DNA of 64,000 nt, from NCBI GenBank assembly GCA_900155495.1, contig FTLJ01000096.1:37093-101092 (forward strand), in the 5' to 3' direction. The notes beneath the pieces are model-generated. The model made no database searches. It worked only from the letters and a program-made list of their open reading frames with translations, and was not told the DNA's origin. Of the stretch, positions 1-59,265 are shown piece after piece (within the stretch, counting starts at the first letter, position 1; each line of letters starts with the position of its first letter). The position numbers and the translations under genes were made by a program. The stretch comes from Porogramme epimiltina. Lineage: Eukaryota; Basidiomycota; Agaricomycetes; Polyporales; Polyporaceae.

Positions 1-1
1 C

Positions 2-715
2 TTCGTATGCATGCGCACGCGGGCGAAGACGCGTCAGCAGGCACTCTCTGCGCTTGCTGCAACACCGTTCGGTACGCAACTTCCCATCGTCCCTTCTCTC
101 CCTCTCCAACTAATAAGGTATACACTTCCAGCCGGCCCAACACCTCCACCAGCCCTGCTCGCAAAAGACCAACCTCCCGTTGTGGCACCCTCACCCTTTC
201 AACGGGTCCTCAGCCTCCTCGCAGGCACCCGCCCTGCGAGCGACCCTGGCTACGCCGCCCCAACCTACGCTCCACCCGCTTCTGGCGCTTATGCCCATAG
301 CGCGCCACCACAGACCAACATCGTGGCCCCGCACGACCCTGACGGACGCCCTCTCTCCTCTGTCACAATGCGGCCGCTCCCGATCCCTCCGCACCTGCAA
401 GAGAAAGCGGCACTGGCGAGCGCACACTCTCAGTCCCCACCATACTCTCCACCTGCGAGCGAGCTCGGCACGCCCACCGTCTACTCCGGCACGGGTTCGG
501 GCTCGGGGGCGTCCGACAGTGGGCTGCTCCTCCCCGTCACGTTCCGCCGTTCGCGCGATGGCGGCGTGCGGGTCGCGGGCGGGCCGCCGCGCTCGACGGG
601 GCCTGGGTCGGATGCGTGGACGCCTGCGGAGTATGACGCGGTGCTGGAAGTGCAGAGCGAGGGCTCGACGCTACCGCCGTCGTACCATCACTATCGCGCG
701 AGTGGGCAGACGTAG
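2..715 (+). CDS. S1: C-terminal tail of PY-motif single-pass membrane protein (5' partial)
   Basis: Only the 3' exon(s) lie in the window; the reading frame is open from the first bases and the true exon start is not visible. The readable part is a Pro/Ser/Thr-rich, low-complexity chain of about 235 residues with no membrane segment, matching the cytoplasmic tails of S2-S4. Near the end it carries RDGGVRVAGGPP, and about 35 residues later TLPPSY, a PPxY-type WW ligand, a few residues before the stop. The ectodomain, stalk and helix presumably lie to the left of the window. Assignment to the family rests on these two tail motifs, which recur in neighbouring genes; function is unknown. Confidence 0.7.
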   Translation, partial: FVCMRTRAKTRQQALSALAATPFGTQLPIVPSLPLQLIRYTLPAGPTPPPALLAKDQPPVVAPSPFQRVLSLLAGTRPASDPGYAAPTYAPPASGAYAHSAPPQTNIVAPHDPDGRPLSSVTMRPLPIPPHLQEKAALASAHSQSPPYSPPASELGTPTVYSGTGSGSGASDSGLLLPVTFRRSRDGGVRVAGGPPRSTGPGSDAWTPAEYDAVLEVQSEGSTLPPSYHHYRASGQT

Positions 716-1853
716 CTTTGGGCTCTGGGTTAGGGTTATGGGGTGGACGCGCGCGCATTTATATGTGACTCGTAGCTTAAGGTGCGTATCGTGCGTTAGT
801 CGGTTTGGCAGCCATTCGAGCTCATCGCGCGCTCGTTGCGTCCCTAGTAATGGTACATACCGCCAAATTACGACTTGTTAATGATATTTACGTTCTCGCG
901 ACCCGCGTGGTTGAGGTGGCGTCGTAGTCATCGGCCTATCGCTCTTCGGAACCTTGGATTGTTACATCGAGCGTTTTCGGAACGGGCAGCTATCGTCCCG
1001 AAGTAAGCGCACCTCACATTCAAATGAGAAACTTCGCGCTAACACCCTGTGTCGCCATCCGTATCTGTACCCTAAAAGACAGCCTGCCATGTGAATCACA
1101 TCGTTGACGCGTTCATCGTGATGACAATGACCTACAATGATAGGTGCAGTAACCGCATTGCTATTGAGCGAATGATCTATGCGTTAGTTATGGACCCCTA
1201 GTCAGGTTGCTGCTGCAGAAAGAATCGAGAGAGGCAAACTACCATCAATATCCGAGTCTCTCGCCCATAGCAGATAGCCTGTGCTAGCTTCGCTAGAGGT
1301 TAATTGGTAATCCGATCAGCTTCTCGGAGTAGAGTGGATGCTCATGATCCTGACTCAGCCCTTCTCTAATGAAACCGCCTCAATGCGTTGCTGGACATAT
1401 GGGGGACGTCAGCATCACAGTCCGCGCTCGTCCAGCTCCGATCGCTCATTCCTGGGTTTGGTGCTCCGCGCTTCCGGGTCGACAAACTGCGGTGGCTTCA
1501 TCAGCATTACCCGGAACATCTCAATCCCAATACAGTGCGTAGCTTTTGGTGACTCTCGTATTCACACTAACTCCTCGGCTCTCCGAAACGCAAGAAGCGC
1601 TTTCCAGCTTAAATTGGGCATACAATACCCATCCGCAAGTACTTAACGCACTGTTCCTATTCGCACCATTAAAAGGGTTTGGGGCGTTTTAGGCTACAAT
1701 GCAGCCGCCTACTAGCAGGAGCTGACCCACACGATCCGGTTACTCCGATCGCAGAATACGACTACTTCATCTTGGGTCGACAACTGCTAACGCCAGTGCA
1801 TCCTTATGTGACTTGGGGGCCCCGCTCGTCCGGTGGGCGCTGGTTTCAGGACG
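716..1853. other. Intergenic, no gene seen
   Basis: This holds the 3' flank of S1 and the upstream region of the carboxylesterase. A 102-codon open frame at 1338-1646 has no recognisable domain or splice context and is not called. Confidence 0.5.
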
Positions 1854-1859
1854 TATAAA
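1854..1859 (+). promoter_or_regulatory. TATA box of carboxylesterase gene
   Basis: TATAAA lies 48 nt before the ATG at 1907, the spacing expected for a fungal core promoter with a short leader. Confidence 0.6.
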
Positions 1860-1906
1860 ACTCCCAGTCTTCTCTCAGTGAGTCCTTGTGTGGGTCATTC
1901 GCCAAG

Positions 1907-5423: not shown

Positions 5424-6616
5424 ATGACCTGCACAGTCGTAGCCACCTTGTTTTCTAGTGTTCAGGCGCAAAACTTCACTGTGGCCGGCCCCCCTAAGCC
5501 CCACCAATGTGTCCCTTTCACCTTCAACGTCACAGGAGGACAGGCTCCTTATACTCTCACCGTCTCTCACTTCGGCCAATCGAACACTACGCCGCCGGTT
5601 GCTATTTTCCCGAACCTCACGGGTCACTTGTGGCATTTACTCGTCAATGTCACAGGTGGGACCTCACTTCAAGGTGCAATGGTAGACAGTTCCAACCACA
5701 GGGCGAATACGGGGAAGTTCGTGGTGATCAGCACTGCCAATTCATCGACATCATGCCTTTCCACCGAGTCTTCTACAGAAAGCAGCTCTTCATCCACAGC
5801 CACCGCGACTAATGAGTCGTCATCCTCTCCTTCCGAATCGTCCACCCCACTCAGCTCTGGTGCAATCGCTGGGGTTGCGATCGCTGCGGCCTTGATCGCT
5901 GCCGCAGCGCTCGCACTTGGGCTATACCTCCTCCGCAAGCATAAGAAACGGCGCTCCTCCGAGAAGCCGTTTATCGAAGGTATGCCGTCCACTTGCCTAC
6001 TATCCCACCCCAACTACTTCTCACATCACTCACAGATCTCGATCCATCCATAACTCAGTTTCTGCCAACTACCGAAACACCGCGGCCTCAACGCTCAAAG
6101 AGATCAAGCGCCTTAGCTCACCGCACTGTCGGCAGTGGCTCTGGTCCCTCTTCGACACTTCCGGCCTACGGGTATATGGAGCACGGCGTCGAAGGCCTCC
6201 GTACGTCCGGCACCAGCTTAGATGCCTCCCCTCGTATGATGCTTCCTGGTGACGTATCATCACATGAACCGGAGTCGCTGCCCGCATCAAGAGATGGGAC
6301 CTTCATGGAGGTCGCGCAGAATGCACCGGCGTTCACTGTTTCAAATCCCAGGAGAATGAGCTCCAGTGATCACGAGCTTCCGCGAAGACCAGGAACAGGC
6401 GACAGTGGGAGCGCGCCATCGCGTTCGTCGAAGCCGCGCAACCCATCTGCTCTCCGAAATGCGACAATACCTGGAGAGGCGGAAGATGGTCAGACTTCGG
6501 AGCCGAGACAAGAGGCAGACGGCGGCGTACGACTAGCTGGCGGGCCGCTGGACGACATGAGCCCTGACGATGGTGCTGTGACGCTGCCCCCTCCGTACCA
6601 GGTGTACTCGGCGTAG
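5424..6616 (+). CDS. S2: PY-motif single-pass membrane protein, type A ectodomain
   Basis: Predicted 378-residue type I protein in two exons (5424-5979, 6036-6616; phase-1 intron, 56 nt). The chosen ATG gives a hydrophobic start ending SSVQAQ, a likely but short signal peptide; an in-frame ATG at 5229 is the alternative. The ectodomain (about residues 20-105) contains a Cys pair, several N-x-S/T sites and the pattern C.PFTFNVTGGQAPYTL, shared with S5. It is followed by a Ser/Thr-rich stalk, a helix of Ala/Leu/Ile residues (AGVAIAAALIAAAALALG) and the stop-transfer run RKHKKRR. The intron falls just after the helix, as in most S genes. The tail carries ADGGVRLAGGPL and ends LPPPYQVYSA, a PPxY ligand. 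Resembles the SKG6/AXL2-like transmembrane class; role unknown. Confidence 0.78.
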
Positions 6617-10508: not shown

Positions 10509-11479
10509 ATGGATACTCCCTCAAAGCCGCCGCCCCATGGCCACCGGCACTGCGATGCTGGGCTCTTCCACAGTGAGCTACCCATACATACCCATCGCCA
10601 TTGCAAAAACTGCTTCCGTATGAACCGCTGCGAGGGCGCCGAAGCCTTCAAGCTCTTCCGTTGCTCAAAATGTGCCATCGAGACATACTGCGTGCGTCCA
10701 TCATTACCCAGTCCTCATGCACCCTCTAAGACGTCTGTGTGTCAGTCGAAGGAATGCCAGAAGGAGCACTGGAAGAAAGGGCACAAGGGTGGATGCCAGT
10801 TCTATTCTCTCAGCCGTGAGGCAACGACTCGCAACTCCGGCGATCCCAAGGCATGGTCCTACCTCACCACATGGATTGCCTTCCACAATACGACTCTCGT
10901 CAACGCCACCCTTGCGTTCTACTTGCTCCAGAAGGACATCATACCCGACGTCGCCGCAACACACCTCCTCCACCTCTCCCTTCTCTATCATGATGATCCC
11001 GCTCTGCCCATCGAACGTCGCTTCGAGGTTCGCGGCTTCAATTTCACGCACAAGGATAAACCTGCCATCGCCCCCGGCAAGACCTACGCCGACATCGTCT
11101 ACCCGAGCCGGAAGGGAGCAGTCCAGATGGGACATATGAGCCTCGGTGACGACTACTGGGACACAGGCGCGTACCTCCTCATGGTCCAGTTCAAGAAGGA
11201 GAACCAGGGCGCGATCCCGTTCTGGAAGCATTTCGGGATCGACAAAGCCAGCGCGCGCGCAACGCCGTCGTGTCACCATCCGGCGGACATTCTCAAGTAC
11301 CACATTCACGGAGGCTTAAAGCCGCACTTTTGCTGTGGACGGATGCCAGGAATGCCGACGTGCTGCTGTGGGGGTTGGACACACGAAAAGGTGTGTTTGC
11401 CCTTCGTCGTTCGACTAGTGCTTCGACTAACCAGTCCTGTAACCTGCAGTCGGGACATGCGCCGAAGGAAGGCTGGTGA
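10509..11479 (+). CDS. MYND zinc-finger protein 1
   Basis: Predicted 285-residue protein in three exons: 10509-10691, 10746-11390 and 11450-11479. The N-terminal MYND finger is built across the first intron: HCKNCFRMNRCEG..., FRCSKCAIETYC | SKECQKEHW..HKGGCQ, supplying the expected Cys/His zinc ligands for a protein-interaction domain. The first intron is a multiple of three and stays open in frame, so an unspliced reading would insert 18 residues. The rest has no named domain but contains a second Cys-rich motif near the end (FCCGRMPGMPTCCCGGWTHEK). Removing the last 59-nt intron gives the C-terminus SGHAPKEGW, matching MYND-2 (PDHAPREGS) and fixing the stop. Function is unknown; it is paralogous to the gene at 13820. 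Confidence 0.85.
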
Positions 11480-11811
11480 AGGAAGCATGCACTACTGCCC
11501 TGTAGCATACATCTGGCTGTACAGTACCCTCTCGCGCGCTATATATCCCATTGTGCTCTCAAACCCCTCCACTGCGTGCTTTGGATTCTCGGTTCATTCT
11601 TACGCTCTCTCCGAGTTGATATAAGGTACGATGTGTCAGTAAGATGATTTACGCTTCCATGGTGGAAGGAATGAAAGTATGTGTTCGTCAGTTGCGATAA
11701 GTTCGAAGCGTGGTCATCACGAGCCGTCCATCTAGTGTTTCAGACAGGTACCCCGCGTAATCGTCAAAACTTGGGATATGCACCTTCCGTCTCTCCAATA
11801 CGGCTCCCCTC
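11480..11811. other. Intergenic, MYND-1 to S3
   Basis: About 330 nt of 3' flank and promoter sequence. No element is recognised. The open frame running to 11624 is read-through past the spliced MYND-1 stop. Confidence 0.45.
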
Positions 11812-13013
11812 ATGGCGCAGACGTCTGGTCTGACTCGCGCAGTCTCTGGAACAGGTAATGCGCAGCAAGGTATGAAAGTATCTCACCTCTTCGTACATCC
11901 TTGATTTGCTTACCCCCATTGGTAGAATGCACAGGTTCCAACTTCTACAAGTTTCCCGGCCGAGGGGATGTAGTCAATACGACACAGCCAGTTGAACTCG
12001 CTTGGAACCCAGGATGTCTTGACACCCTCGAGGTGGATATATTTCTGTTTTCCGTGCTCAGCGAAGGCAATCCCGTCCCGTGCGTCTGGGAGAACGTCGA
12101 CAACGGCGCGGGCAGGTACAGCATCGACCTTGACGCAAAATGGTGGAACTTCAGCAAGTCAGTTCTACTTGGCCTCATCGTCGTCCCCTCGGGTCAGCTC
12201 CCGTTCAACTCTTCCCTCCCTATGGGTCCACTGTTTACCGCGACGTACTCTGGCGATCTTTCACCGCTTAACAGTAAGCACCCAAGTAGATTGGGAACAT
12301 GCTTAATCGTTGCGGCGGCCGTCGCACCCTTCCTCTTCCTCGTCTCCATCTCCGCAGCAATATACCTCATGAAACCCCGACTCTCGTGGAGAAGCGTCAT
12401 CCGGACAAGTTCACGCAAGATCGCTAATGAACGCAAGGTTTCCGCCGCATCCTGCATCTCCCACGAGGCGCGGCGTTTCCGACGAGCGCCGCCGGCGTAC
12501 TCGTCGAACTCCATCTACGCCCCATCCATTGCCACCATCGAGAGTTTCGATGCTCTCGATCCGACGACCCCGCCATTGGCTATGTATCCCATCCATCTCC
12601 CGGGACTCATGGAAGATGCGAACGAGTTAGATATCAGCACCTGGAAGCCAGCAACCAAGTTCGAACCCGAGTTCCATCTTCCGCATCTTCCCTCCAAGAC
12701 GCCCTCCGAACCTTCGTCCACCCAGCACACGCCATCGCCCAGTAGTGCGTCCGCGGACACCCTCGCGACTCTTCCCCCCATTTACGGGCCGTGCACCAAC
12801 GTGACAGGCTCTCTCCATCCCCCACCTGTGATCGAACATCTTTACGAACATCGACCTGGAGGGGTTCTCCCGAGCCCTACCCGGCCACGCCGGCGTTCCG
12901 TAGATGGCGGTGTGCGTCTCGACGGGGGTCCACCATTCTCTGGTGACGGGGGTCCGGGTGCGGATCTCCGGGTAGACGACGTAGCATGGGCGCTGCCTCC
13001 CTACGATGAGTAA
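11812..13013 (+). CDS. S3: PY-motif single-pass membrane protein, type A-like ectodomain
   Basis: Two-exon model (11812-11854, 11926-13013), 376 residues. The small first exon is chosen because it joins in frame (GTE|CTGSNFYKFPGRG) over a GTAATG...TAG intron, but it encodes no signal peptide, so a different 5' exon is possible. The ectodomain is about 110 residues, with two Cys and sites such as NTT and NFS. The single helix is around 12298-12370 (TCLIVAAAVAPFLFLVS). The tail is long, Pro/Ser-rich, carries VDGGVRLDGGPP and ends ALPPYDE, an LPxY-type WW ligand. Unlike most S genes there is no intron after the helix. It lies between the two MYND paralogs. Confidence 0.72.
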
Positions 13014-13819
13014 CTTCTGGGTATGTATCTGATCATTTATCACCATGCGTTCGACATTCACTGAGGGCTCGGGGTGGTGTTCAGGGAGGATCAAATTGGC
13101 GAAATTGTTGCGTGGAGCGAGCATGGAGTGCCTTTAACTTGTTTTCTAGAGTACTGTTCCGTCGTTTGTTACCTTGGCGATGATGTGACCCTTGTGCAAT
13201 GTATCCTCCGTCTCCGTAATCTTGGTCTCTGTCGCTTTGAATTTGGTCGAAGCCAATTGTTAATGAGACGTATATAGTATTGGTCGTAAGTATGTAGTCC
13301 TAATAGATGAGTTATATGCCTGACTTTCGGAGTCTGAAGTGTATGATATTGAAGGCGGAGAGTAAGTAAGTCCTCGATATCGGCTTCAATCTCCGAAGAT
13401 GATGGTGCCTCTCCAAGTCCCCTCGTTGCAGACACCATGCTTTTCCCCCTCATCGGCATCTCTATACATCAGTCCGTTCCGACCTTCTGTATAATGTTAA
13501 GTGAAATGTCAAGACTTACAACCTCTTGTTGCGCGGGAGCCATGGCAAGAAACAACACTCTACGTTGGACTGGCCCCTCACTTCGACCTGGAGTTGTCTG
13601 CCGGTGGGCTCGTTGAGGAGACAGGGCGGATGAAGGGGTACCGTAGGCACGAATAAGGAATGGTACACGGGACGGCTGTAGCTGAGTGTGCCCAGTTTGC
13701 TGCGTCATATCGATCACACCCGATGGTCCCGAGCCTCAGTTTTCGAGCCAGTTATCGCCCCGCCCCTGTCTCGTCGTCCTACATCTGCAACGACGTCCAC
13801 CCTCTCTTCGAACTCAACT
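13014..13819. other. Intergenic, S3 to MYND-2
   Basis: No recognisable gene. The MYND-2 frame is open upstream from 13688 but without an ATG in frame before 13820. Confidence 0.45.
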
Positions 13820-14774
13820 ATGCCCGAACCCTCTGCGCGATCGTCGGATGCGGGGCTCTTCCACGATGCAATGCCTATACACACCCATCGTCACTGCAAG
13901 AACTGCTTCCGCATGAATCGCTGCGAAGGCGCGGACGCTTCCAAGCTTTTCCGGTGCTCAAGGTGCACAGTCGAGACGTATTGTGTGCGTGTATGGCCTT
14001 ATATATGCGTGTGTCGTCTCACCCAGTGTGTTTATAGTCTAAAGAATGCCAGAAGGAGCATTGGAAGAAAGGCCACAAGAGCGGATGTCAACTCTACTCT
14101 GCCTTCCGCGATTCCGCGACCACGTTCTCAGGCGACCCCAAGGCATGGTCATACCTTACCACCTGGATAGCGTTTCACAACACCACCCTCGTCAACGCCA
14201 CCCTTGCATTCTACTTGCTCATGAAGAACTTCTTCCCCGGCGACGTCTTCAACGAATATATACTCGAAATCACCCTCCTCTACCACGACGACCCCTCCTT
14301 GCCCATCGAGCGCCGCTTCGAGGTCCGCGGCCACCAGTTTGCACACAAGGACCAGCCCGGCCCCCTCGGCGGCCTCAGCTACGCCGACACAATCTTCCGC
14401 GGCTCACGCGAGGCCGCGGTGGAGATCGGGCGTAAGCACCTCGGGGAAAACTACTTCGCGACGGGTGCGTACATCGTGATGGCCAAATTCAAGGCGGGGA
14501 GAGAAGAAGGCGTCCCGTTCTGGAAGCACTTCGGCATCGACAAGGAGAGTGCGCGCGCGACGCCGCTCACCATGCGCCCGCTGGAAGTTCTCAAGCGCAA
14601 CATCCACGAGGGAGTGAAGCCGCGCTTCTGCTGTGGGAGGGTCCCGGGATTGCCGACGTGCTGTTGTGGTGGCTGGACGCACGAGAAGGTACGCTCTCCC
14701 TTTACAGTCCGTAGGGTGTGACCCTGAAGGTTGCTACGCTACAGCCAGATCATGCTCCGAGGGAAGGATCATAG
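13820..14774 (+). CDS. MYND zinc-finger protein 2
   Basis: Predicted 281 residues in three exons: 13820-13984, 14038-14688 and 14745-14774. The structure and intron positions are the same as in MYND-1. The finger reads CKNCFRMNRCEG..., FRCSRCTVETYC | SKECQKEHW..HKSGCQ. The ATG at 13820 was chosen because PSARSSDAGLFHDAMPIHTH aligns with the start of MYND-1. The C-terminal part keeps FCCGRVPGLPTCCCGGWTHEK, and the last tiny exon gives PDHAPREGS. The second exon of MYND-1 and that of MYND-2 are nearly the same length (215 and 217 codons). The two genes are clearly a tandem duplicate with S3 between. Molecular role unknown; MYND domains usually bind proline-rich partners. Confidence 0.85.
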
Positions 14775-16555: not shown

Positions 16556-17675
16556 ATGGGGATATCTCAATCGAGCCTCCTGTACCAGGACCTTCCCGTC
16601 ATCATCGTGGCCTCAATAATCGCTCTCTTGTTCATTCTTGGAGCTGTGTGGGCTTGCTTATTTCATCCCAAGTCATACGGCGAGAAGAAGGGAAAGGAGA
16701 AAGGGAAATCCCGTGAGCGATATTGGTTTAAGTGCCTCGCTATTGAGAAACTGACTATTGGTGCGTCAAGTGGCATACCCAAACACTACTCACCGCCGTG
16801 CATCTCCCCGGCTTCAGGATGGGCAGGCAGAACTTGGAGAGTTCCGATCTCATTCAGGAGTCGCACATGAGTCACGAGGGGAAAGCTCAGGACCCAGGCG
16901 TGAAGACCGGCTCATTCCCAATCGTCTCGAGGACCTTGTCCTAGATCCCTTTCGCGATAGCGCGTCTCATGATACCCCTATACCAACGCCCGTGTCCGCC
17001 GCTCCTCAGCTGCCACCGCAAGCACTCACCCGCTCCCGGCTCAATCTCTCGGACTTCGACGTCGACCGTCCAAGTTCCATTCATTCCTTCACGAGCGACC
17101 TTCACACAGGGGCGCGTACCGAGGCGAGCGGCACCACTTCCGTCTTCGAGTCGCCCTACAGTCCACCACCACATAGCGCTACTACCACCGCAGACGCCGA
17201 GGTACCGCGCTCACCCACATCAACATATGATGACGGGGTGTCTATGAAGACATCTTCGACCCTTCCCCCTTCATACCGCACCCGGAGATCAGTCCTCGAC
17301 TTGACGGCCCACTCGCACTCATCGCCTTCTCTCTCGGACGGGGTCCCACGAACCCCGCACATACCGCCCGTCCCGCCATCGGCATATCGCAGGAACCGGA
17401 GAGGCTCACGGGCTGGTGCAACGCTCATTGCGGATCTTCAAGCGGCAGGATGGGGGCGTGACACGCCGACGTCCCGCACGGAGGATGAAGAGGGAGGGGG
17501 GCTGGGAGCACGACAGAGGCGACCCGGACCCACAAGAGAGAGGCGGAGGTCGAAGGATGGCGGTGTTCGTCTCGAGGGTGGAAGGCCGGGATCTCCTGCG
17601 TATGAGCGGGATCTCGGCGATGACAGTGGAGGGTCAGGGTCTACGCGGCCGCCGTCTTATCTCGAAGGTGAATAG
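16556..17675 (+). CDS. S4: PY-motif membrane protein, ectodomain missing or unresolved
   Basis: Two-exon model 16556-16760 and 16831-17675, 349 residues. The helix starts only about 13 residues from the modelled ATG (LPVIIVASIIALLFILGAVWACLF) and is followed by the very basic run EKKGKEKGK. The tail (over 250 residues) is Pro/Ser/Arg-rich. It contains an internal LPPSY near 17262-17276, then KDGGVRLEGGRP, and ends RPPSYLEGE, so it carries two potential WW ligands. The 70-nt intron was placed by reading frame; a donor at 16713 also fits. Either the protein has lost its outer domain or upstream exons are degenerate or unrecognised. The tail is certain, the N-terminus is not. Confidence 0.62.
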
Positions 17676-18259: not shown

Positions 18260-19662
18260 ATGTCTACGCTTCCCGGTCCAGAGGGTGGCTCCTCCCCTTG
18301 CCAAATCTCAGGAAAGGGTATCCTTTCCTTAGATGACACGGGACCCGAGATCAATTACCAGGGACAATGGAAAAATATTACAGACACACATGCATTCCAC
18401 GAGTCGATTAGTCAGTCTATAACGGGTGGGGATACCGCAAAAATGTTTTTTTCAGGTGTGTACCCAAGTTGCATCCGTCTACTATAGCATCATATGCATT
18501 GATTATTCCCCAGGACCCCTTCTTGTGGTAATAGGGGCTCAAATAGGTGATCAAGTCGTCTATCAGGTTGATAATTTGCCTCAAGTGACGCCTAAGGGCT
18601 CGGAGGATGACTCCAAGTATACGCATACACTCTTTAGTACAAGCGGTATCAGTGGCGCCGGCACCCATACCCTCACGATTCGCAATAACATGCAGGGCGA
18701 TACACTGTTCCTAGACTGTTTTCAAGTCTCCGCCGATTCAACGACAAGCATTACACCTACGAAAACGAGTTTGAATCCTACTATTGACACGACTAGTCAC
18801 ACTACTAATACGACGGGGGCTACACCGACGTCAACTCGGGCATCCTCGACAGGACAACTGGGGTCAATACTAGCAACCAGTACAAGTCCCTCAACATTAT
18901 TAAGTGCTTCCACAGGTACTCTCATATGAATGCTATGAAAATATCCAAACATACTAAACTTAGCATAGGACCTTCTTTCTTATCGACTACAGCTGCAGCA
19001 CAGAGTTATACCGGCTCGGGAACGTCCATCTCGGGCACGCACTCGGAAATACAGCCCTCTTCTCCATTCTCCAGTATCGTGTTATCGGGTCCTAAAAGCA
19101 TACCCACCAGTCTTCCCCTCTCGACTACGGGGAGTCAGCCCGGTGATGGGAGCCGCAGCTCGCCTGCCACACTCTCAGGAGCAACCATATCGCCAAGAAT
19201 AGTTGCGGGTTCTGTGGTTGGGGCTGTTCTCTTCATTCTGCTCATGGGAGCCTGTGCTATACTGTATAGGAGAAGAGTGCACGCCCAGCGCCAGGGTATA
19301 CTTGTGAGATTTGGTTAGTACCACTTTTTTCTTTAATTTTGTTTAATGAACATACTAAGTCGACGACAGAACCTTTAGCACTGTTCTCAAAACCATCACC
19401 TGGCCTTGCGACTGGCTCTGCATCAATTAGGAGCTCAACAGATAAGGGGGGAGCGGAGAAATACTATTTGGGCCGTCTTTCTCTAGCCCCGAGCGTAGCT
19501 CCAACGCTTCCCCCATACGAGGAACCAGTGTCTCTCGACTCTCACCAGAATGTGACATACGGGGTCGAATACGACCGTGTGGGAGGGAACAATGTAGGAG
19601 AAGAAGAAGAAGAAGAAGAAGAAGAAGATAGAAACGAAGTTGTTGTGCCTGTGGTTCTATGA
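18260..19662 (+). CDS. S6: single-pass membrane protein, type B ectodomain
   Basis: Exon 1 (18260-18455) begins MSTLPGPEGGSSPC and contains LDDTGPEINYQGQW; it ends MFFSG with the phase-1 intron common to all type B genes. Exon 2 starts at 18514 (GPLLVVIGAQIGDQVVYQVD) and ends the folded domain with GTHTLTIRN...FLDCFQVSAD. A Thr/Ser stalk, split by further introns, leads to the helix IVAGSVVGAVLFILLMGACAIL and the stop-transfer RRR. The tail resumes after an intron (EPLALFSK...), contains LPPYEEP (LPxY-type ligand, internal here), and ends with nine consecutive Glu and VVVPVVL. No signal peptide is present; the helix may act as the signal anchor. Sequence pattern suggests a beta-sandwich, perhaps galactose-binding-like; ligand unknown. 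Confidence 0.7.
19600..19626 (+). repeat. (GAA)9 microsatellite inside S6
   Basis: Nine perfect GAA units, read in frame as poly-Glu near the C-terminus of S6. Its length may vary between strains. Confidence 0.9.
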
Positions 19663-20627: not shown

Positions 20628-21765
20628 ATGCTTATAAGGGCTTTGTTCATAGGTATGCCGGTGGAGGGATTGCCACTCTATATTGGTGTGCCGGATCCGC
20701 CACAGGAGTGTGGCTCTATCAACATCGAGTGGTCGGGCGGCATACCCCCTTACGACGTAGCTGCATTCGCTTCCTCCACCCCACTTGCTTCATTTCGTCG
20801 CATCAACAGTTCTCCTATCCAATGGACTGTTAATGCCAGCACTGGAACACCAATCACATTCACTGTTGAAGACAGCATGATGCACAACGCGTCTACGGGA
20901 TTACTTACAGTCAATCCCGGTACCACTACGGGCTGCTTGCTCGCACCCCCGTCAGAGTCTAGCCTACATAGAGAGAGTAGGCACACACAGGACGGCATGA
21001 CGGTCGTGGTTATTGTGTTAGCATCTCTAGCCAATGTTCTTGCTCTGGCAGCCATTGGATTCTGGATACGACTTTGCCGGACGAAGGCGCGAATTTTGGA
21101 AGCCGACGAAGACGTTTATGAGCACAAAGAGGTCGTGATGTCGCCTGAGCAGCTTGGTGAGTCTCTGCTAACTACTTTTTGAATTCTTCTTAACACATTA
21201 CAGATTTTGAGGACATTCCTCTTGTCGGGTCTCTAACTCCACGGAGACAGAACGTGGTGCAGAGATTGCGTTCCGCTGCGACTCCTGGAGTTATTGTATC
21301 ATATATTCGGAGGGCTACACGATCCTGGAGCGGAGGCCGCTACCGTTCGGACTCCACCCTTGTCAATACTCCAAGTTCAAGAGACGAGGGTTGTCCAAAC
21401 AATGCACACTCAAATGGTTTCACCCCAAGGAGAAGGCCATTCATCAAGAGCATTATCAGCCCGAAGGCGTTCCACGTTTCTCGCCTCGCTATTGTCAGAC
21501 CACAGAGGATTCCCTCCTTAAGCTCTTCACCAAGTTTGAGCAGTGATCATTCCCATCATCGGTCTGCCGTATCTTCGAGAACAATGATGGGTCAAGCAGC
21601 TGAGGTCATTACAGAGCACATGGATAATGTAGGTTCCATTAGAAGTAGCTGTATCCCCATACATGTTCTCACACTGGCACCCTCATGCAGGCGTCCCCGG
21701 AGCAGCGTAGTAACTTATCAAGCGTTGATCCGCCAACACCTCCCCCTCCTTATAGCCCTCGATAG
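20628..21765 (+). CDS. S5: PY-motif single-pass membrane protein, type A ectodomain
   Basis: Three-exon model 20628-21156, 21204-21628 and 21691-21765, 342 residues. The ectodomain matches S2: VPDPPQECGSINIEWSGG.PPYDV, then W.VNASTGTPITFTVEDS and a closing Cys. The helix VVVIVLASLANVLALAAIGFWI is followed by a phase-1 intron, as in S2. The final exon was found by requiring the family end: splicing from the GTAGGT donor at 21629 to the CAG at 21690 gives ASPEQRSNLSSVDPPTPPPPYSPR-like reading, ending in a PPxY ligand. The unspliced frame instead runs on to 21835 without it. The 5' end is uncertain, because no convincing signal peptide follows the ATG at 20628. Confidence 0.72.
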
Positions 21766-24561: not shown

Positions 24562-25963
24562 TCTTGTGTATACAGGCTGTGTTTTTGAATAAGTCTTGGA
24601 ACCCTAGTATAAAGCCAATTTCGCCTACTTTAATCAGGATATACCGCCCGACTGTAAAGTAAACAAGCCCAGGTGCTATGACGCTGTTGCAAGGGATTGC
24701 AGATAATAGTTTGAGGGATAGCTGGCTAGAAATTAAATCTGAGGAGGGTCTGCTGGCGAAATTCAACCATTTTATTGTGTGATACTAGAAGGATACTACG
24801 GCGTTCACCGAATCGATTAATGTACATCTATTAAGATGTACACGGTGGGAAGGGAACCTGTCCATTGAGAACGCTACCTCTTTCTAGACGATGAACTGGT
24901 CGGGCCGGCATATGCATGTGCGGGAATACCCCGGCTACTCTTAATGTCCTCTTGTCAAAGCATAGGCTTATTTCGCGACTCGTCGGAATATCTCATTCTC
25001 ATTTTTATGTATCTCGGCTTCTGCACACCATTAACATTCCCTTCCTCTCTTGGTGACTACCGCCGCCAAATTTCTCTCATGCTTGCTGAACTTATGAAGC
25101 ACTCGTTGCAGTCTTACACGTATCCCCGTCTACCGTCACTCTACCCAAAAACATACTTATCTGCATTACTATACGACATATTTGTCGTTCGCACGAATCA
25201 CACCAATGTATATACAACTCTAGTATATATCTTCCTATCCCTTACGTACCAGGTATCGTAGTGATTTAGTCCTGATAAGGTTTGCGTTCTCTCTAGTCTA
25301 TCAGAATATCAACGCCGCAGTCCCAAGCCAATATATCTATCATTCACCACTGACAGGTTTACGCGCGGCTATATAGGTTTTTGTTCGGGATTTTCCCATC
25401 TACCACGTAATTACTCTTCTTCGTCTGACGGTGCTGATATGTGGCACAGCACGTCCAACTAAAACATCGTTGGAGTCTCTGTAAGCTCCCCGATCGTATT
25501 TTCCACGTTCAGGTCGCACAGACTGATACTGTTAGACAATGTGGGGTGGGCCTATATATGGAGCAACGGCATCATATTACTCTCTAGTCTCTACAGGAAG
25601 ATGTATATCCTAGGTGAAATAACATAGCTTGTGGTGACCCCAGCCCAAGGTAAGTCCCACCTATGTAAATGCACCAGATATGCATAATTTCTGAGGTCGC
25701 ATTTCCGCATTGTGTATCACACACCAGTGTACGATGTCGATACGAGCTGCATTAAGATCATCACGTCATCTTCTCTTCTTTGATACGTCTTCGGGCGCAC
25801 AAGATCGCAGTGGATGTTACGGGAATTCTCTTGGCCACAGAAACGATAGCAATGCTTAGACGTATATGAACTGAGGCCGCTTTAATTATATCGACGTCAC
25901 CGCATTCCCGTTCCTATCCCCTGCTCTAACTTCTTCGTATTGCGCCGACTCCTACCTCGCCTT
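24562..25963. other. Intergenic, S7 to S8
   Basis: The least gene-like spacer on the left half. A 105-codon frame at 24944-25261 shows no domain. No repeat or RNA gene is recognised. Confidence 0.4.
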
Positions 25964-43923: not shown

Positions 43924-44764
43924 GCCAAGCTAAGAGCCGGGGTGGCTGTCGCCCGGCAGATATATGGACCTGAGGCCTGAAGAACTGTACAAGTAGACAC
44001 TTCGACGATGACGATGGAAAGACGTCGCGCGATATTGAAGAGAGTCAAGTCGACATTCTCCCTGTCGACATCTGCACATTGCGGCAATGCCGAATGAGGA
44101 AAGACGCCCAACCCTGGCCAGATGACGCAGGGCGCTAGAGGCAACATGCGTCCTGCGCTTGATCTCGCATGTCATCCCCTGCATCTGCATCCGTCGCCGA
44201 CTCCTGCAATGCTGCTCGTGCAAAAGGAGAACAAGGACAGGGACTGCGCGCGCCGCTTAGTTCGCGCTAGCTGGAAATCGGGGTAGAGTGTACGTACACG
44301 CTCGTCGCATCCTCTTCCGGTCGCGCCTGACCTCATCCTCAGATGCTCCACAGCGGCTCTAGGAGAACGTCCACCATCGACACCACGCCGGCCACCCAGG
44401 GCCCTGCCGACGCGCCTTCCCAAGTCCAGGGTTACTCGATTAGCACGAGTTTCGCGACACGCTGCGCCGCCAAGAGGGGCTGCTGGGACGGAATGGAACG
44501 GGTACAGAGGGGCTGTTTTGGACGTGGACGAGAGGAGCACCGAGGGTGACGGTAAGCCTCCCGACCGATGCGGATGTCTCGCACGGAAACATGGCGTGAC
44601 GTACCTCCGCACCACCCCTCTCCCCACAGTCCCCACCGCGCAGTGACACCGTCCGACACTGCACACCGCCGCGCTCCAACGATATAACATTCCGACGCGT
44701 CGCTGCCGTCTCCACATCCTCTCCTCCCTCCGCCTCCCGCCCACTCCTCCTTCCTCCCTTCGCG
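43924..44764. other. Intergenic, MFS-2 to sugar porter
   Basis: A 68-codon frame with an ATG at 44343 lies within the likely promoter or leader of the sugar porter and could be an upstream ORF. Long minus-strand frames here (for example 44432-45196) are shadows of the GC-rich coding strand. Confidence 0.4.
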
Positions 44765-47447
44765 ATGGCGCAACATCCTAACGAGAAACCACCTCCGGCC
44801 GGGGCCAAGGCTTCGCTCGATGGCCACGAGTCCTACGTCGAGAACCGTGAAGCATCCCCCTCCGCCCAGCGCAACTCGGTGCAAAACCTCAACGCGAAGC
44901 TCGCCAACCCGCTTTCGGGCCTGTCGCACGACCGCCTCATGGCTGACGCTGCAACATTCGCCAAGACGCACGGTCTCGCGGAGTACACGGAGGTCCTCCA
45001 GAAGGGTGCACTCGTCGCGCAGGACCCTGCCGCGTTCGAAACCATCCCCATGCTCGACGACAATGACCGCAATGTGCTCCGCCGCGAATTCACGCACAAG
45101 TGGGATCAGCCCGCGACGCTCTACTATCTCGTCATCATGTGTTCGATTGCCGCCGCTGTTCAGGGTGTAAGTAAATACCTCCTCATGAATTGTCAAGGGT
45201 GCATATATTCATGCGAAATAACCCAGATGGACGAGGCCGTCATCAATGGGGCGAATTTGTTCTTCGCTTCTCAGTTCGGTATCGATCCCGGCAACGGTCC
45301 CGGCTCAGGAAGCAGCAAAAACCAATGGCTACTCGGACTGGTCATCTCGGCACCATACGTATGCTCCATATCCTCCCAATGTCCTTCACGAACCTTCTAA
45401 CGTCACGTTAAAGTTGTGCTGTGGTCTCATTGGATGCTGGATAACCGATCCCGTACGTCCCTCATCTTTTCATTATCCCTGTTCAGTCCGCCAACACCAT
45501 TCCGTATAGCTCAACAAATGGCTTGGGAGGAGAGGCGCCATCTTCGTGACGGCGATGTTCTCTTTTCTTACCTGTATCTGGCAAGGCGTCACCAACTCAT
45601 GGCCTCACCTTTTTGTGGCTCGCTTTGTGCTCGGTTTCGGTATCGGCCCGAAGAGTGCAACCGTCCCGGTCTACTCGGCTGAGTAAGTTCAGGCTATTCG
45701 AGTGTCATTCTTCTATGTATCCTTTGCAGCCCCGCTGACTGGTATTCGCCAGATGCGCGCCTCCCCTGATTCGTGGTGCGCTCGTCATGATGTGGCAGAC
45801 ATGGACTGCGTTCGGGATTATGATCGGTTATGTCATGGATCTTGCGTTCGAGAACGTCAAGGACACCCACAACATCAAAGGTCTCAATTGGCGTCTTATG
45901 CTCGGCAGTGTATGCGTTCTTCCTTCATGATAATGCGCGCCAACTGAACACTTCTGTTGCGCTTTGCAGGCTGGTATCCCCGCTCTGTTCATCGCCTGCC
46001 AAGTGTATCTCTGCCCAGAGTCGCCGCGCTGGTACATGATGAAGAACCGGCACGCGAAGGCGTTCGAGTCCCTGCGCCGCCTGCGCCACACAGACCTTCA
46101 GGCAGCCCGCGATCTCTATTGTCAGTTATCCGCCCTTGTATCTATCGGACGCTCGCTGAAGTCTATACAGATATGTACGTCTTGCTCGAAGCCGAGAAAG
46201 AGGCGAGTAGTATGACCAGGAACAAGTTCCTCGAGTTGTGGACGGTGCCACGCAACCGCCGCGCGTCCGTCGCTTCATCCATCGTGATGTTCATGTAAGC
46301 GGCTCCTTATCTATACTTCCACACTTGTTTTGCTCAACATCTGCGTGTCTTTACAGGCAGCAGTTCTGCGGTATCAATGCCATCGCGTACTACAGTTCCA
46401 ACATCTTCATCCAGGGGGGTTTCACAACGACGGCAGCGCTCATCGCGTCGTTCGGGTTCGGTGCGTGTTTTGTATCTCCGGCTCACTTGACGTTCATCTC
46501 TGACTCTCTCTTCAGGTGCCGTGAACTTCGTATTCGCCGGGCCAGCAATCTGGACGATTGACACCTTCGGGCGCCGGAACCTTCTCCTACTCTCCTTCCC
46601 GACCATGGCGGCCATGCTGCTCCTCACAGGCTTCGCCTTGTACGTCTCCTGCCCTTTTCCAGCCCGAAAGCACTTTTGCTGATCTATGACGTCATCGGCC
46701 TCAGCTACATCCCGACGTCGAGTCCCGCACACATTGGCATCATCGCGCTCGGGATATACTTATTTGCTATGGCTTATTCTCCGGGGGAAGGACCTGTGCC
46801 ATTCACAGTGAGCTATCTTATGAATTCTCGCCAATGCCTGTGCTGAAGGCCCCCGGCAGTACTCGGCGGAGGCATTCCCGCTGTATGTGCGCGACATTGG
46901 CATGTCGCAGGCTACAGCGCTACTCTGGTTCTTGTGCGTCCCAACATCCTCCTGTAGCATCTTTCAGTGCATCTGACACAGTGTCCATCAGCAACTTTGT
47001 GATTGCGCTCACAGTTCCAGCGCTCATCGGTGCGTGGACTCCACAAGGAATGTTCGGATGGTTCGCCGCATGGAAGTGAGTTTCCACAATGCTTGTGACG
47101 TTCGTTTCTCTATAAATGCTCACGCGTACCCCTCAGTATCGTCGGATTCTTCCTTGCACTCCTCTTCGTGCCCGAAACCAAGGCTCTCTCGCTCGAAGAG
47201 CTCGACCAAGGTTCGTTCTCCCTCTCCCTCACCCCTGAGCGAACATTTCACTAACAAGCGTGCACATTCGAAAACAGTGTTCAGCGTGCCGACGCACACA
47301 CACGCGGCGTACCAGATCAAGGCGTTGGGGCACAACTTCCGCAAGCATGTTCTGCGCCGGAAGGTTGGCGAAATGCCGCCGTTGTACGAGCACGAAGGTG
47401 CCATCGGCGAGAAGACGTACGCTCCAGGCGGGTATGGAGCCGCATGA
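44765..47447 (+). CDS. MFS sugar porter (hexose/polyol:H+ symporter-like)
   Basis: A twelve-helix sugar-porter carrier for uptake of a sugar or polyol across the plasma membrane. The ATG at 44765 opens a hydrophilic leader of over 100 residues, leading to [16 protein letters not shown] and, across an intron, [15 protein letters not shown]. Family signatures are present in order: LGRRGAIF (loop 2-3), [23 protein letters not shown] (helix 4-5, 45612-45682), [12 protein letters not shown] (46017-46052), [17 protein letters not shown] (46363-46412), [25 protein letters not shown], and [15 protein letters not shown] near the end. The C-terminus ends GGYGAA. About twelve short introns. No lesion is seen; all joins read through. 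The long N-terminal leader is typical of a fungal subgroup of these porters. Confidence 0.9.
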
Positions 47448-51302: not shown

Positions 51303-52684
51303 CTACCTAATATCCACACATCTCTCGAGTACTTCCTCGACATAATCCGCCATTATCCGCATCCCTTCTTTTGAAGGATGTCTACCCCGGGTGTTGGTCA
51401 GCACAAACATCCTTCGAAAATGAGCGATACTCACGACGGTATGTAGTAAAAGTAATGATCCGGATCATCGCACATCCCTTCCGTGGAGCAAAACTCAATC
51501 GAACAATTGGTGATGCACGCGTCAGTGCTCCTGTATCCAAATGCCTCATATCCTGGGTCTGGACCCAGAACTCCGTCCCAGATCCTGCTCACCGCTGCAA
51601 ATGCGACATCGAGCTTTGGACCATCTTGTCGGCCGTCACCGGTTGAGTTGTGGCCGAGGTGGAGAGCGTTTAGTCCAGAAAAAACGGTCTGAACGAACGC
51701 GTCGCCCGCAGAGGAGTGCACACCGAGGCCGTAGTCGTCGACGATGAGGAAGGTGCGGGCGTGGGTCGGCGGACTAGCAAGGATGCGGATTTGGGAGAGG
51801 ATGACTTGTGCAGCGGCCTGGAGATTCTCTTCCCCGTCAACTGGAATAGAGAATCGGAAGGGTTCATGACAGCGAAAGGACGTTGAGGTATGGAAACATA
51901 CCTCTCGAGTCCCCGAAATCGCTGGGGCCAGGGCCACACGTTGAGTAAAGAACGACCAGATAGGGGTTTATGACGTACTTGATACCGAAGAATATCGCAA
52001 AAAGCGTTGTAGATGGGTCGAGGCCATTAGATTGCCCAAGGAAAGTCTTCACTAGCACGAAATGAACAGTTGGTATGGGAGGAGGGGAGGGGGAGCGTAT
52101 GTGCTCACTTTGTCCAAGAAAATCGACCTTCTTGAAGTTGCTCGGCCATAGGCTTAGATCCGTGCACGCGCCGGATTGCTGAGAGCATTTGGCTTCAAAG
52201 TCGGACACGTACTTCGTTGACAACCATACTCACTGCGTAGTCCATAAGCGTAGCCCCTGCATCCTCCGCTATGTGCTCTATCCAAACTTTCCCATTCGTG
52301 GACCTCCCACCTGCCTCTGCATCCGGCGGAACAACGACTGGAAGCGCAAGTGGACCTCCATCGTCACGTCCCCCGTCTGTGTAGGAGTCCTGGCTGTGCG
52401 TGGGTTGAATGTGGCAAAGACAGGGCAGCAAGACGTACGCCAAACGCGACGATATCCTTGATATCCTTGAGATTTACGCCAGCATTGACGTCTGAAACTG
52501 ACCCTGATAGTGTTCCACAAACAGGGGAGACCGCGAGGTGGATTCCGTTGTTGTCGCTGCGTTGGTTTAGAAAAACGTGCTGCTGAGCGTGTTGCCCTTG
52601 AGGGAAATCTAGAGAATGGGTTCGCGTGATACACAACGCCAGTAGAAGCAAGCAGACGGAAAGGTAGAAATCGAATGCTGTCAT
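51303..52684 (-). CDS. CE16-like SGNH/GDSL acetylesterase 1, secreted
   Basis: A serine esterase of the SGNH hydrolase fold, resembling carbohydrate esterase family 16, which removes acetyl groups from short xylo- or other oligosaccharides. The ATG at 52682-52684 opens a signal peptide (FYLSVCLLLLALC...). Block I is split by an intron: IVAFG|DSYTDGG, the nucleophile Ser lying in the first codons of exon 2. GGRSTNGKVWIEHIAED and TLMDYA follow; later LFAIFFGIKYVINP, then QFLGQ-type segments. The final catalytic Asp/His block is also spliced: DDPDHYFYYIPS|HPSKEGMRIMADY, giving the stop at 51303-51305; without that intron the frame stops at 51431 and lacks the His. Paralog of the gene at 59714; about seven exons. 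Confidence 0.82.
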
Positions 52685-53069
52685 GGATCGTTGCGGAAGA
52701 CACAAGTCTAGTAGGCCGGAGACGAGATGTAGAGAAGGCTAGGGTGCCGGCCCGGGGCAAGTACACTGGCGCCAATCGTCCGCCAGCTGCGAACTACTAG
52801 GGGACGGTGCCGCTGTATGATCATCGTGTATAGATACAAAGCCCAGTGAGGGTGGGGGGTAAAATGGATAGATGTGGATCGCGAAATTGTAGTCTAGCTT
52901 CATACATAGGAACAGAACAAGGACAGGTCGGTAGAAACATTATGTAATATTAATACCATGACTCATTCTAACAACTTGACTAGAAGGATACCATATTATG
53001 ACTAATACTACCGTAGCAACGACACCAGACAGTCCGACAGTACATGCTCCCAGAAGTCATGGTCCTAGT
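52685..53069. other. Intergenic, esterase 1 to deaminase-like gene
   Basis: AT-rich promoter/terminator region with no recognised element. Confidence 0.4.
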
Positions 53070-55525: not shown

Positions 55526-57005
55526 TCACCAATTGTCCTGATACGGGGGCGGGAGCGTGCCAGTTTGCGAGACGGTGTCGTCCGATGGACTGCCCAGCCG
55601 ACCGGCGCCGCCTGCTAGTCGAAAGCCCCCATCTACAGAAACTCTCCTCTCCGGACATGACGCCTCCTGCGTGATCGAAAGGCAAGTATTGCTTTGCACC
55701 AGTTGGCTCGTCTCATACTCTGGAGATTCCGTGAGAGAACCCCAAGAACGCTGCTCCGGGAGGCCCGAGTCTGACGCTCCAGACTCCTTCAGTTCGTCAC
55801 GCAGGGAAAAGTTGGTCCCTCTGGGATCAACCTCTTCTAAATGCGATTGTTCTGAAGAGGTGGTCACAATAGACCCTCTGGTAGCGGTTTCCACTATGAT
55901 AGACAGCACGAAAACATCAGTACTGAGCCTTGTCAGAGACGAAGTCAAAGTTACAAAACACACCCGATACTTGATCTACTTCTTTTGAGCATGCAGGGGC
56001 GCCTTTTACGCGTCCTCGCCGTCTAAAGAACCAAATTCCTAGAGCGAGACCGATGGCGCCAAAGGCCACTCCCCCGACAGCCATTCCTACAGCCGCTTCT
56101 ACACTGGAGACATTGGACCCGCGCGCAGTAACAGTCTCAGTTGCGGGTCTCGCAGAGGCCGTCATTGTAAATGTTGCGATAGATCTTCCAGTAGCATCGG
56201 AATGATTGTAAGGAGAAGATGAGCTTGAGCCGCTTGACCCGTTACTATTTGTAGATGATTCGCCCACTGCGATCAGGACGTCGATCCGTAGTCAGCCTAC
56301 GAATAACGCACGATAGGGCCGTGACGCCACTCACCTGAGATAGAGCTCGTGCTCGTCTGCACTGACGACTTGGAGGGTTCTGATGACGGGGTAACACCGA
56401 CAGATGGTGTATCAGCCCCTACGGGAATGCTCCCAGGGAGCGCCGGGTTAGATGCGGTAGAAGCCGATTGAGTTTGGCTCATGGTCAACGTTGCGGACGT
56501 TGTGAGGAGACTTTGGATCCCGAACTGAAACCCGTCGACGCCAATTATCCTCCCGTAGTTGATGATTTTGAGCGTATGCTGACCGGGAGATAGGTCGTCT
56601 TGAGAGTAAAAGAGGGCTGACGGGGGCATATCTTCCAAATTCCATGTCTCTTCAAATACGAAGCCTTCGGTGTTCTGGTTGTACACAGATTGGCTCGCGC
56701 CGTCCATCACAAGTGTCACATTATCGTCATTTGAGGCGTTTCTTGCCAACCACCATCCATACACCTTGACAGAGACCCCTGCACTGTGAGTCAGTAATCG
56801 AACATTGCAGTCAAGACAGCACCAAAGACATACCCTGGAAGGATACCGACGCCGCATTTGCGAACTCCTCAGTGAATGTCATTGTTTGCATGTACCCATT
56901 CGTCACTATGTGGTCAGTACCCCATGCACGGTTCGAGGCGGTGAATTGCGTATCCCCGTCATCTTGGCATTGTACAGCAGTCTGGTTGCACGACACTTCA
57001 TCCAT
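55526..57005 (-). CDS. S11: PY-motif single-pass membrane protein, type B ectodomain
   Basis: Exon 1 (57005-56834) begins MDEVSCNQTAVQCQDDGD and ends VSFQG at the conserved phase-1 intron. Exon 2 reads GVSVKVYGWWLARNASNDD and closes with ALFYSQDDLSPGQHTLKIIN and VDGFQFGIQS. A long Ser/Thr stalk with an intron near 56335 leads to the helix GMAVGGVAFGAIGLALGIWFF and RRRGRVK. The tail contains VDGGFRLAGGAG and ends TLPPPYQDNW, a PPxY ligand, at the stop 55526-55528. The exact position of the post-helix intron near 55930-55985 was not settled, since simple GT/AG choices do not give the tail frame. Exon 1 has the same length (172 nt) as in S12. Confidence 0.77.
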
Positions 57006-57113: not shown

Positions 57114-57120
57114 TATATAA
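57114..57120 (-). promoter_or_regulatory. TATA element of S11
   Basis: TTATATA on the minus strand lies about 109 nt before the ATG at 57005. Confidence 0.4.
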
Positions 57121-57402
57121 GTCTTTTGGGGGTTTAATCAGATGCACCATTAGGCACCAGTGCAGGAAGTATTCTCAGGCTCCTTGCCGGTGATTCGTGC
57201 ATCGCACCATTATAACCACTAATGGAAATAAAGACACATACGATGAACATTCAAGATCGCAGGGCAAGGAGAAAAGATGAACGAAGCAACGACACCAACA
57301 AGATAGCTAACCGAGAAGTTTGTCTAGGGGATCTGGAAGGGAGCAGAAGCTATGGCCCACGTGATAAGAAACCCTCAGGCTTCTTACCGCCGTCACGCCG
57401 AC

Positions 57403-57428
57403 GTATTGGCAACCTCAGTTGCCAATAC
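57403..57428. repeat. Perfect 11-bp inverted repeat with two CCAAT boxes
   Basis: GTATTGGCAAC (57403-57413), loop CTCA, GTTGCCAATAC (57418-57428). Each arm holds a CCAAT pentamer, in opposite orientations. It sits about 285 bp upstream of the S11 TATA element. Confidence 0.6.
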
Positions 57429-57769
57429 ACTCAGATCCATGAGGCAAACATCAAAGCTACCAAGCTCGTCATCATCTGAGACAACACAATGAGGGCATGT
57501 ACGACACCAGCCCGGACGAGCCAATCTTGCAGAGTCTAACTTTGCACATTCTCCCCGTTGAGAAACGAGAACAAGGAAAAGAAGAGATCATCTGCTCCTA
57601 GAACGGTCCATCATCGAAGACCTGCGCCGTTCATACAGAGTTCGCTCTCGATGAAGCTACACAAAAGGCACATCAACATGGCACATGGGACGTAGTCTCT
57701 TCAGCGCTCGCTAAATCTGACCAGAATGACAAAACTAAGCTCCAAAGCCCGACTGAGAAAAGTAGAGCA

Positions 57770-59265
57770 CTACTCATACGGGGGCGGGAGAGTTGAGCCA
57801 GACGAGAAGTCCTCGAGCACTCCATCCTGCACTTCACCAAGGCGCAGCGTGTCGACGCAGGCCACCGGTGGCGGCGGTGGCTGCGGCGGCAGCGGCAGCT
57901 CGCGGGGCCGCCCCGAACCCAGCCCGAGCGAGGCCGCTCTCCCAGCAATTTCGCGAGTCACACGAGGAGTGCTCGCATACGAGGAGCTCCGGAATTGAGT
58001 TTTGCTCCAAGTGTTGGGGGTGATAGGGGAGGGTGCCACACTGGAAGCCCTCTCCGCGAGATGGCCAGAACCTTCAGATACGTAGTCGCACTCGGATTCG
58101 GTGCACGTGACATTTGCCCGGACCCCGAACACTGTGCCCCTTGGCACGGGGGGTTGCTCCTCGGACAGTTGCAAGTGGAGAGACGGACGCTCGGGGTCTA
58201 GAACAAGTCAGAGGGGTGCTTGTCAGCGCAGCACAAGGACGAGGGCGGCAGAACACGTGTACCAAGCGCTTTGAAGGGGTGCACGCCACTTGAAGGTAGC
58301 CCGCTCTTCCACGTCTTGCGTCGGCGGAGGAGCCAAACGCTGAGAGCCACAAGGACGGCGATCAGCGCGGCACCTGCGGCTATCGCGAGTATCGTGCTGA
58401 TGCTGAAGCCGCTCTGCGCGGGTACGTTGCTCGATCCGGAGGGTGTTGCATGCGAAGGCGAGCCCTGATGGCCCATGCTTTCCGAGGTAGGGCTCGCGGA
58501 GGTTGAAGATGGAGATACAGGCCAGGACGTGATCTCAGAGGTACTGCTAGTCAGCGTGGAAGAGGTCGCTAGGTAGTTACCAGTGCAAAAATTAGAAGTG
58601 AGCGGACTGAGAAAAATTGCAAAACTTACAGGTGGTGAGGTCGAGGCTTGCCGAAGACACTGAAGTGCTTGAGGTCGAGATTGAAGTTAATTTTGAAGTC
58701 AACATTGAGGTCGCCGAGGTTGAGACTTTCTTGGTAGTCGAAGTCGCCGTCAAAACCGGAGGTGACCCATCTGGCGGCTGATCACCTCCCGACAGGGAGT
58801 CTACGATGAGACCGTCGATCCCGAGCATACTCCCGAAGTTCAGTATCGACAGCACGTGCCGCCCTCCAGGGAGCTCGGGCAGCGAGAAAAGCACCACCGA
58901 CGCAGGTGTGTCGCGCTCCTTGGTCCCGGTGGTGAAACCGGTCGTGTTGCGCGAGTTAGCCATCGGGCTACCCCCGTCGACCGCGAACGTGACGTTCGTG
59001 CCTGGCGCACCCGTCCACCACCCGTACACAGACACGGAGGATCCTGCGCGCTGGTAAGGACCGGTACACATGTGGAGAGCGGAGGCGGCACACCATTGAA
59101 CTTGATAGTCGCGGCGTTCACGCCCATGGTGAAGGTCATGGTCTGATTGTACGCCATAGTGACTAGTCGATGGTGCATCCAGGGTTCCAGGGCGTCGCTG
59201 AACGAGAGGTGGGTGTCGTCCACGCACTGCACGATAGTGCTCAAGTTGCACGATACCGCGTTCAT
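57770..59265 (-). CDS. S12: PY-motif single-pass membrane protein, type B ectodomain
   Basis: Exon 1 (59265-59094) begins MNAVSCNLSTIVQCVDDTH and ends IKFNG at the phase-1 intron. Exon 2 reads GSSVSVYGWWTGAPGTNVTF and closes with VVLFSLPELPGGRHVLSILN and GIDGLIVDSLSGG. The stalk is a Thr/Ser run, then an intron near 58570-58628. The helix ISTILAIAAGAALIAVLVALSVWLL ends RRRKTWK. The tail has a Pro run (LPPQPPPPPV) and ends TLPPPYE, a PPxY ligand, at 57770-57772. The DGGVRLAGG box seen in S11 is not recognisable; only CVDTLRLGEVQDG stands at that place. Sister to S11 by exon length and N-terminal sequence (V-S-C-N), so these two are probably a tandem pair. Confidence 0.78.

Follow-up and report, generated by a model that had tools for sequence, protein, structure and literature searches.

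A clustered family of predicted surface proteins with PY-motif tails and a second conserved tail element in Porogramme epimiltina

We analysed a 64,000-nucleotide stretch of the Porogramme epimiltina genome (41.9 Mb, 926 contigs), namely C76:37093-101092, which reaches the right end of its contig at 101,092 and is hereafter called the window. It carries twelve genes, S1 to S12, whose products are probably type I single-pass surface proteins of one family encoded in clusters. Our preferred reading, to which we assign a probability of roughly 0.6, is that they are glycan-binding-like surface receptors predicted to recruit an Rsp5-type ligase via PPxY motifs. Many of the tails end in two conserved elements, a box with the consensus DGG[VF]R[LV]xGG (box 1) followed by a near-terminal PPxY or LPxY (PY) motif. 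An initial annotation of the window had proposed twelve single-pass genes, ten of them with a PY motif in the tail; our splice models bear out the twelve genes, and the motif is present in 10/12 (S8 and S9 have none). Box 1 was missing from that annotation. Gene finding combined stop-to-stop frames, a helix scan and simple splice models, without transcripts; exon ends are uncertain in S5, S6, S8, S9, and S11, and the cytosolic side of the tail was assigned from the basic residues that follow the helix.

The PY motif lies within 14 residues of a stop in S1-S4, S6, S7, and S10-S12. On the forward strand the PY motifs of these genes, internal copies included, are LPPSY in S1 (671-685), the extended PPPYQVY in S2 (6587-6607), three motifs in S3 (12486-12506, 12771-12791, 12993-13010), two in S4 (17262-17282, 17649-17672), and the C-terminal PPPPYSPR of S6 (PY 21742-21753), PPPPYATL of S7 (PY 24538-24549), and IPPPYNG of S10 (PY 35553-35564); on the reverse strand they are PPPYQDNW in S11 (55529-55552) and the C-terminal LPPPYE of S12 (in 57773-57799). 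S5 carries LPPYEE (19507-19524, forward), which stands 26 residues upstream of the modelled end or 47 before the stop of its frame. In the window, 12 frames have [LPIR]P[PSTA]Y no more than 14 residues before a stop; 60 dinucleotide shuffles averaged 0.52 such frames and never exceeded 3. These 12 frames comprise eight array genes (S1-S4, S7, S10-S12; the open frame of S6 is too short for this count) and four other frames (at 6226, 19453, 54913, and 63299).

The tails are long and proline-rich, and their PY motifs could in principle be chance products of such disordered sequence. Because four of the 12 counted frames are not array genes, the real background of near-terminal PY motifs in the window is higher than the shuffles estimate. 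However, a single frame was returned when 25 other loci of the genome (75,395 bases including overlaps) were scanned in the same way, and two-box tails occurred five times in the window and never in 60 shuffles. Together with conservation across genera and low ratios of nonsynonymous to synonymous substitution (dN/dS), both given below, these results make a chance origin very improbable.

Alignment of the tails placed box 1 in S1 (DGGVRVAGG, 557-583), S2 (DGGVRLAGG, 6518-6544), S3 (DGGVRLDGG, 12903-12929), and S4 (DGGVRLEGG, 17556-17582), all on the forward strand, and in S11 (DGGFRLAGG, 55607-55633, reverse strand), always upstream of the last PY motif; the other seven genes are without it. 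Across the genome, the DNA pattern for DGGVRL gave 47 matches compared with 18 for the backward control; 30 of these matches were cut out as loci, and 17 of the 30 have an in-frame PY tail. The tighter pattern GVRLAGG gave 19 matches compared with 8 for its control, with a PY tail in 17/17 of those examined (2 of the 19 were left out). In total we recorded 32 two-box tails, located on C76 (12), C458 (6), C604 (6), C730 (2), C758 (2), and C91, C92, C196, and C537 (1 each), after excluding one row of a loose tail scan (L012) that has neither A-G-G nor a near-terminal PY.

The composition of box 1 in the 32 tails is D32 G31 G32 V29 R30 L29 A23 G30 G31, the spacing from its D to the P of the PY motif is 15-39 residues, and the PY tyrosine stands 2-10 residues from the end. 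The downstream motif often reads PPPYxx[YIVL]; in 26/32 tails the third residue after the PY tyrosine (Y+3) is one of Y, I, V, and L (the extended PPxYxx-hydrophobic form). These residue counts are biased upward, since the searches had in part selected for D-G-G-V-R-L and PxY; the DGGVRL pattern did not select for A-G-G or Y+3. The most divergent forms of box 1 are DGGVHLGEW and DMGIRLKGG. Two tails, C604:25550 and 22791 (L062), combine the variant boxes DMGIRLKGG and DGGVSLQGG with a normal PPPY and indicate positions that tolerate change. The string GVRLAGG was not found in the literature searched. Conserved and without a motif known to us, box 1 is in our view the most interesting point of the family.

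Relatives were sought with a profile that included the tail, which makes the sample a biased one; 15 proteins were retrieved at E <= 10, and nine of them were inspected together with four from a separate search. Seven database proteins, which represent five genera of Polyporaceae, have both boxes (P0002-P0006, P0008, and P0009), with DAG in place of DGG in P0003 and P0004; named sources are Polyporus arcularius, Daedaleopsis nitida, Lenzites betulinus, Dichomitus squalens, and Earliella scabrosa. The other inspected proteins do not have the two boxes: in P0001 and P0007 the gene call is short and stops before the tail, and P0010, P0011, P0012, P0015, and P0019 look unrelated or have no box 1. 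P0001 shares 79% identity with S2 across 49% of the length of S2. P0019 (Favolaschia, E 2.9) appears to be a protein of tandem jelly rolls, with PPSY close to the C-terminus and without box 1. When the head of S12 alone served as the protein query, no match was obtained at E <= 1.

Between P0003 and P0004, identities are 15/15 in box 1, 7/10 in box 2 (the PY end), 8/25 in the linker, 53/136 in the mid tail, and 65/95 in the head. For a tandem triplet on C76 (18.5, 21.8, and 24.5 kb), dN/dS was 0.15, 0.17, and 0.17 in the segment that starts shortly before box 1 and runs to the end, 0.72, 0.84, and 0.46 in the mid tail, and 0.11, 0.11, and 0.67 in the head; these are regional averages from one triplet, with synonymous sites nearly saturated for the first two pairs. 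On these values (0.15-0.17 vs. 0.46-0.84), the two-box end is tightly held while the mid tail drifts. Positive selection on the heads, averaged over the head in this triplet, is unsupported. The idea that the family had diversified locally agrees with duplication in clusters; diversifying selection is unsupported by the head ratios.

The genome also encodes a candidate partner for the PY motif. C881 carries C2 (E 3.3e-11), three WW, and HECT domains in one stretch, which is the Rsp5 plan (a likeness by domain layout), and further WW genes are present elsewhere. The extended motif PPxYxxL is described as the Nedd4-family site at the C-termini of ENaC subunits, which share with our tails the near-terminal PPxY and the hydrophobic residue at Y+3 but are otherwise an unrelated channel (PMC2582799). 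In yeast, the PPXY membrane protein Sna3, itself a cargo, is reported to bind Rsp5 and to depend on it for sorting (PMC2171029), and the PY membrane adaptors Bsd2, Tre1/2, Ear1, and Ssh4 likewise meet Rsp5, with Bsd2, Ear1, and Ssh4 described as Rsp5 substrates themselves (PMC2810449). Given the encoded C2-WW3-HECT protein and these precedents, the tail PY most likely recruits the C881 ligase, as a predicted interaction. The proposal of the initial annotation, as far as it concerns surface proteins that form a family and bear PY tails, is supported, with PPxY kept in seven Polyporaceae relatives, the extended form in 26/32 tails, and a C2-WW3-HECT ligase encoded.

The same precedents open another reading, in which the array proteins serve the Rsp5-type ligase as membrane adaptors, comparable to Ear1, Ssh4, and Bsd2: PY would bring the ligase, another part would select cargo, and the head would pick or anchor it. 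The existence of such adaptors, some of them substrates of the ligase that they recruit, and the multiple PY motifs of some tails (three in S3, two in S4), as expected of avidity, fit this scheme. However, it leaves unexplained why cargo choice from the inside should need large extracellular heads of different folds, and likewise why the head is under purifying selection in 2/3 pairs of the triplet. Ear1 and Ssh4 are moreover described as carrying SPRY domains (PMC2810449), and Pfam SPRY was found in 0/17 of the proteins that we scanned. We consider the adaptor scheme unlikely.

That Pfam scan covered ten window models (S6 and S10 without their tails) and seven relatives, and gave no credible match in the heads and tails of these 17 proteins; S1 and part of S8, scanned additionally, gave none. 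S9 reached DUF6479 with 27.2 bits (cut-off 25.4), but the match ran through stalk and helix (residues 221-297) and was rejected as an effect of composition. In most members the fold test identified the head as a CBM35/CBM6-type jelly roll. Different heads occur on the two-box tail, among them this CBM35/CBM6-like jelly roll, a sandwich, and, in a gene that lies outside the window on its left, the fold of a GH18 chitinase. The outer domains had been expected to vary, and they do so in a stronger sense than proposed, as heads of different folds. We infer that the heads bind wall or foreign glycans, a putative activity for which they could be put on glycan arrays.

Among the window genes, a jelly-roll kind of head is found in S7 (23095-24561, forward), S9 (27961-29141, forward), S10 (34120-35573, forward), S11 (55526-56999, reverse; start codon not settled), and S12 (57770-59265, reverse), and by eye in S5 (18260-19662, forward; exon ends approximate) and S8 (about 25950-27230, forward; ends approximate, helix at ~26679). 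Each of these has a helix, and stalks, which are Ser/Thr-rich in the window genes, were noted, for example, in S5, S7, and S12. S1 (11-715, forward) contributes only a cytosolic tail to the window; its head, of the jelly-roll kind, lies to the left at C76:36312-36593, and its helix was not seen. S2 (5424-6616, forward; exons 5424-5979 and 6036-6616, with a phase-1 intron after the helix) and S6 (20655-21765, forward; S2-like, tail exons uncertain) have the sandwich head, which may be an FnIII/Ig-like domain. S3 (11812-13013, forward) has a head of another kind, with helix and tail in a single exon, and S4 (16556-17675, forward) consists of helix and tail with no head recognised.

These different heads join the tail in a uniform way. 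The first intron after the helix is in phase 1 and lies 3-35 residues downstream in 17/17 helix-resolved models out of 20, whatever the kind of head; some of the 17 are near relatives, and S12, C458d, and C458f, with the helix unresolved, were excluded from the table. S12 and the GH18-like gene, looked at separately, agree. The second introns (n = 6, resolved models) are in phase 0 once, phase 1 twice, and phase 2 three times. As exceptions, S3 has no post-helix intron, S8 is ambiguous (phase 2 or 1), and S5 and S7 offer no candidate. Because of this uniform phase-1 intron, the simplest reading of the gene models is a single helix-intron-tail cassette joined to exchanged heads.

The GH18-like gene (C76:9.9-11.9 kb, reverse strand; L056 2918-4903) belongs to the same array, encodes a single-pass protein, and ends in DGGVRIAGG...LPPPYQRY, the head being joined to helix and tail by a splice model only. 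Its head is homologous to PDB 6k7z (E 2.6e-13) and 51-59% identical to the six most similar exons at other places of the genome; Pfam and NCBIfam gave no credible match for it. At the catalytic DxxDxDxE site the head reads DGIDVGYGD, compared with DGIDVDYED in 6/6 of those paralogous exons. Since the catalytic acids are lost, the head would bind but not cut chitin-like polymers, an inference from sequence that makes the gene a case of a chitinase fold apparently turned into a receptor head. A parallel is tobacco CHRK1, a GH18 head on a receptor kinase with a reported interaction with NtPUB4, a homologue of the E3 ligase ARC1 (PMC3479402, PMC5485988); both are GH18-headed membrane proteins, and CHRK1 meets an E3-type partner. 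CHRK1 is a plant receptor kinase, whereas the gene on C76 has no kinase, a two-box PY tail, and no catalytic acids, and plant GH18 receptor heads are taken to be active in the account of PMC5485988.

A head, a Ser/Thr stalk, one helix, and a cytosolic tail are also the layout of the Wsc and Mid2 sensors, and the array proteins could be wall sensors or anchors of this sort, in which head or stalk grips the wall and the tail reports stress, the role of PY being limited to turnover. The Ser/Thr-rich stalks, the single helix, and heads that resemble wall-glycan modules agree with such a role, as do the source names of P0002 and P0003 ("Mid2 domain-containing"). Nonetheless, no Wsc or Mid2 Pfam match was obtained in the 17 proteins, P0002 and P0003 included, the tail differs by its PY and box 1, and tens of clustered copies with different heads contrast with the few sensors known to us. 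A wall sensor of this type is, in our estimate, quite improbable.

We return to receptors that recruit a ligase as the preferred reading. An interchangeable outer head would be followed by stalk, helix, and a long tail that in many members ends in a two-part docking element, with box 1 and then a near-terminal PY 15-39 residues on. The heads would bind wall or foreign glycans outside, PY would dock onto the WW domains of the C881 ligase, and ubiquitylation would thereby control the abundance, endocytosis or vacuolar sorting either of the receptor itself or of a partner that it holds. Box 1 may bind a second cytosolic partner; one shared machinery inside the cell could then read clustering or ligand binding on the outside. 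The same tail end under different heads offers a handle, in that one bait peptide per box could find shared cytosolic partners.

A bolder version of this, possible but tentative, is that the proteins are modular fungal surface pattern receptors, with the cassette exon-shuffled at its phase-1 intron onto varied glycan-binding heads, a dead chitinase among them, and with one ligase and box 1-partner pathway as a surface arm of self/non-self or wall sensing. Intracellular NLR-like proteins have been the main focus of research into fungal innate immunity. One review of this field contains neither "cell surface" nor "membrane receptor" as a phrase (PMC10197012). Each element of the family has known parallels, further ones being Commissureless and PRRG4, animal proteins that are short, transmembrane, and studied for PPxY (PMC5578492). 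No description of the family itself was found in the literature searched, which was not exhaustive. To the best of our knowledge, yeast membrane PY proteins lack box 1 and heads of this sort and occur in few copies (they are set apart here without sequence comparison); likewise, we know of no box 1 in ENaC subunits, and of no heads or box 1 of this kind in Commissureless or PRRG4.

The array extends leftward on C76, where eight further PY or LPAY ends lie at 9.1, 9.9, 12.5, 18.5, 21.7, 24.4, 26.9, and 31.0 kb, giving at least 18 genes with such ends in about 87 kb of window and left flank. An internal second PY, LPPSYRT (17262-17282 in S4), is common to S4 and to two genes of the left flank (C76:12.5 kb and 9.1 kb), none of which has a recognised head. 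The tails of S8 and S9 (26805-27230 and 28857-29141) share the sequence FQEISDD(G/N)TTF(I/V)(M/I)TPS without PY, possibly a second kind of tail.

Among the neighbouring features, Rfam and tRNA scans of the window gave no match. S3 is flanked by two similar genes (10509-11614 and 13740-14688) whose Cys/His-rich N-terminus resembles a MYND finger; the first had no Pfam match at 1e-5. Outside the array, a sugar transporter (44630-47447; PF00083, E 1.9e-96) has a C-terminus with the PY-like MPPLYEHEG. Two GDSL-like esterase genes were also recognised, one by likeness (51431-52903) and the second, on the reverse strand, by a match to PF00657 (59700-61191).

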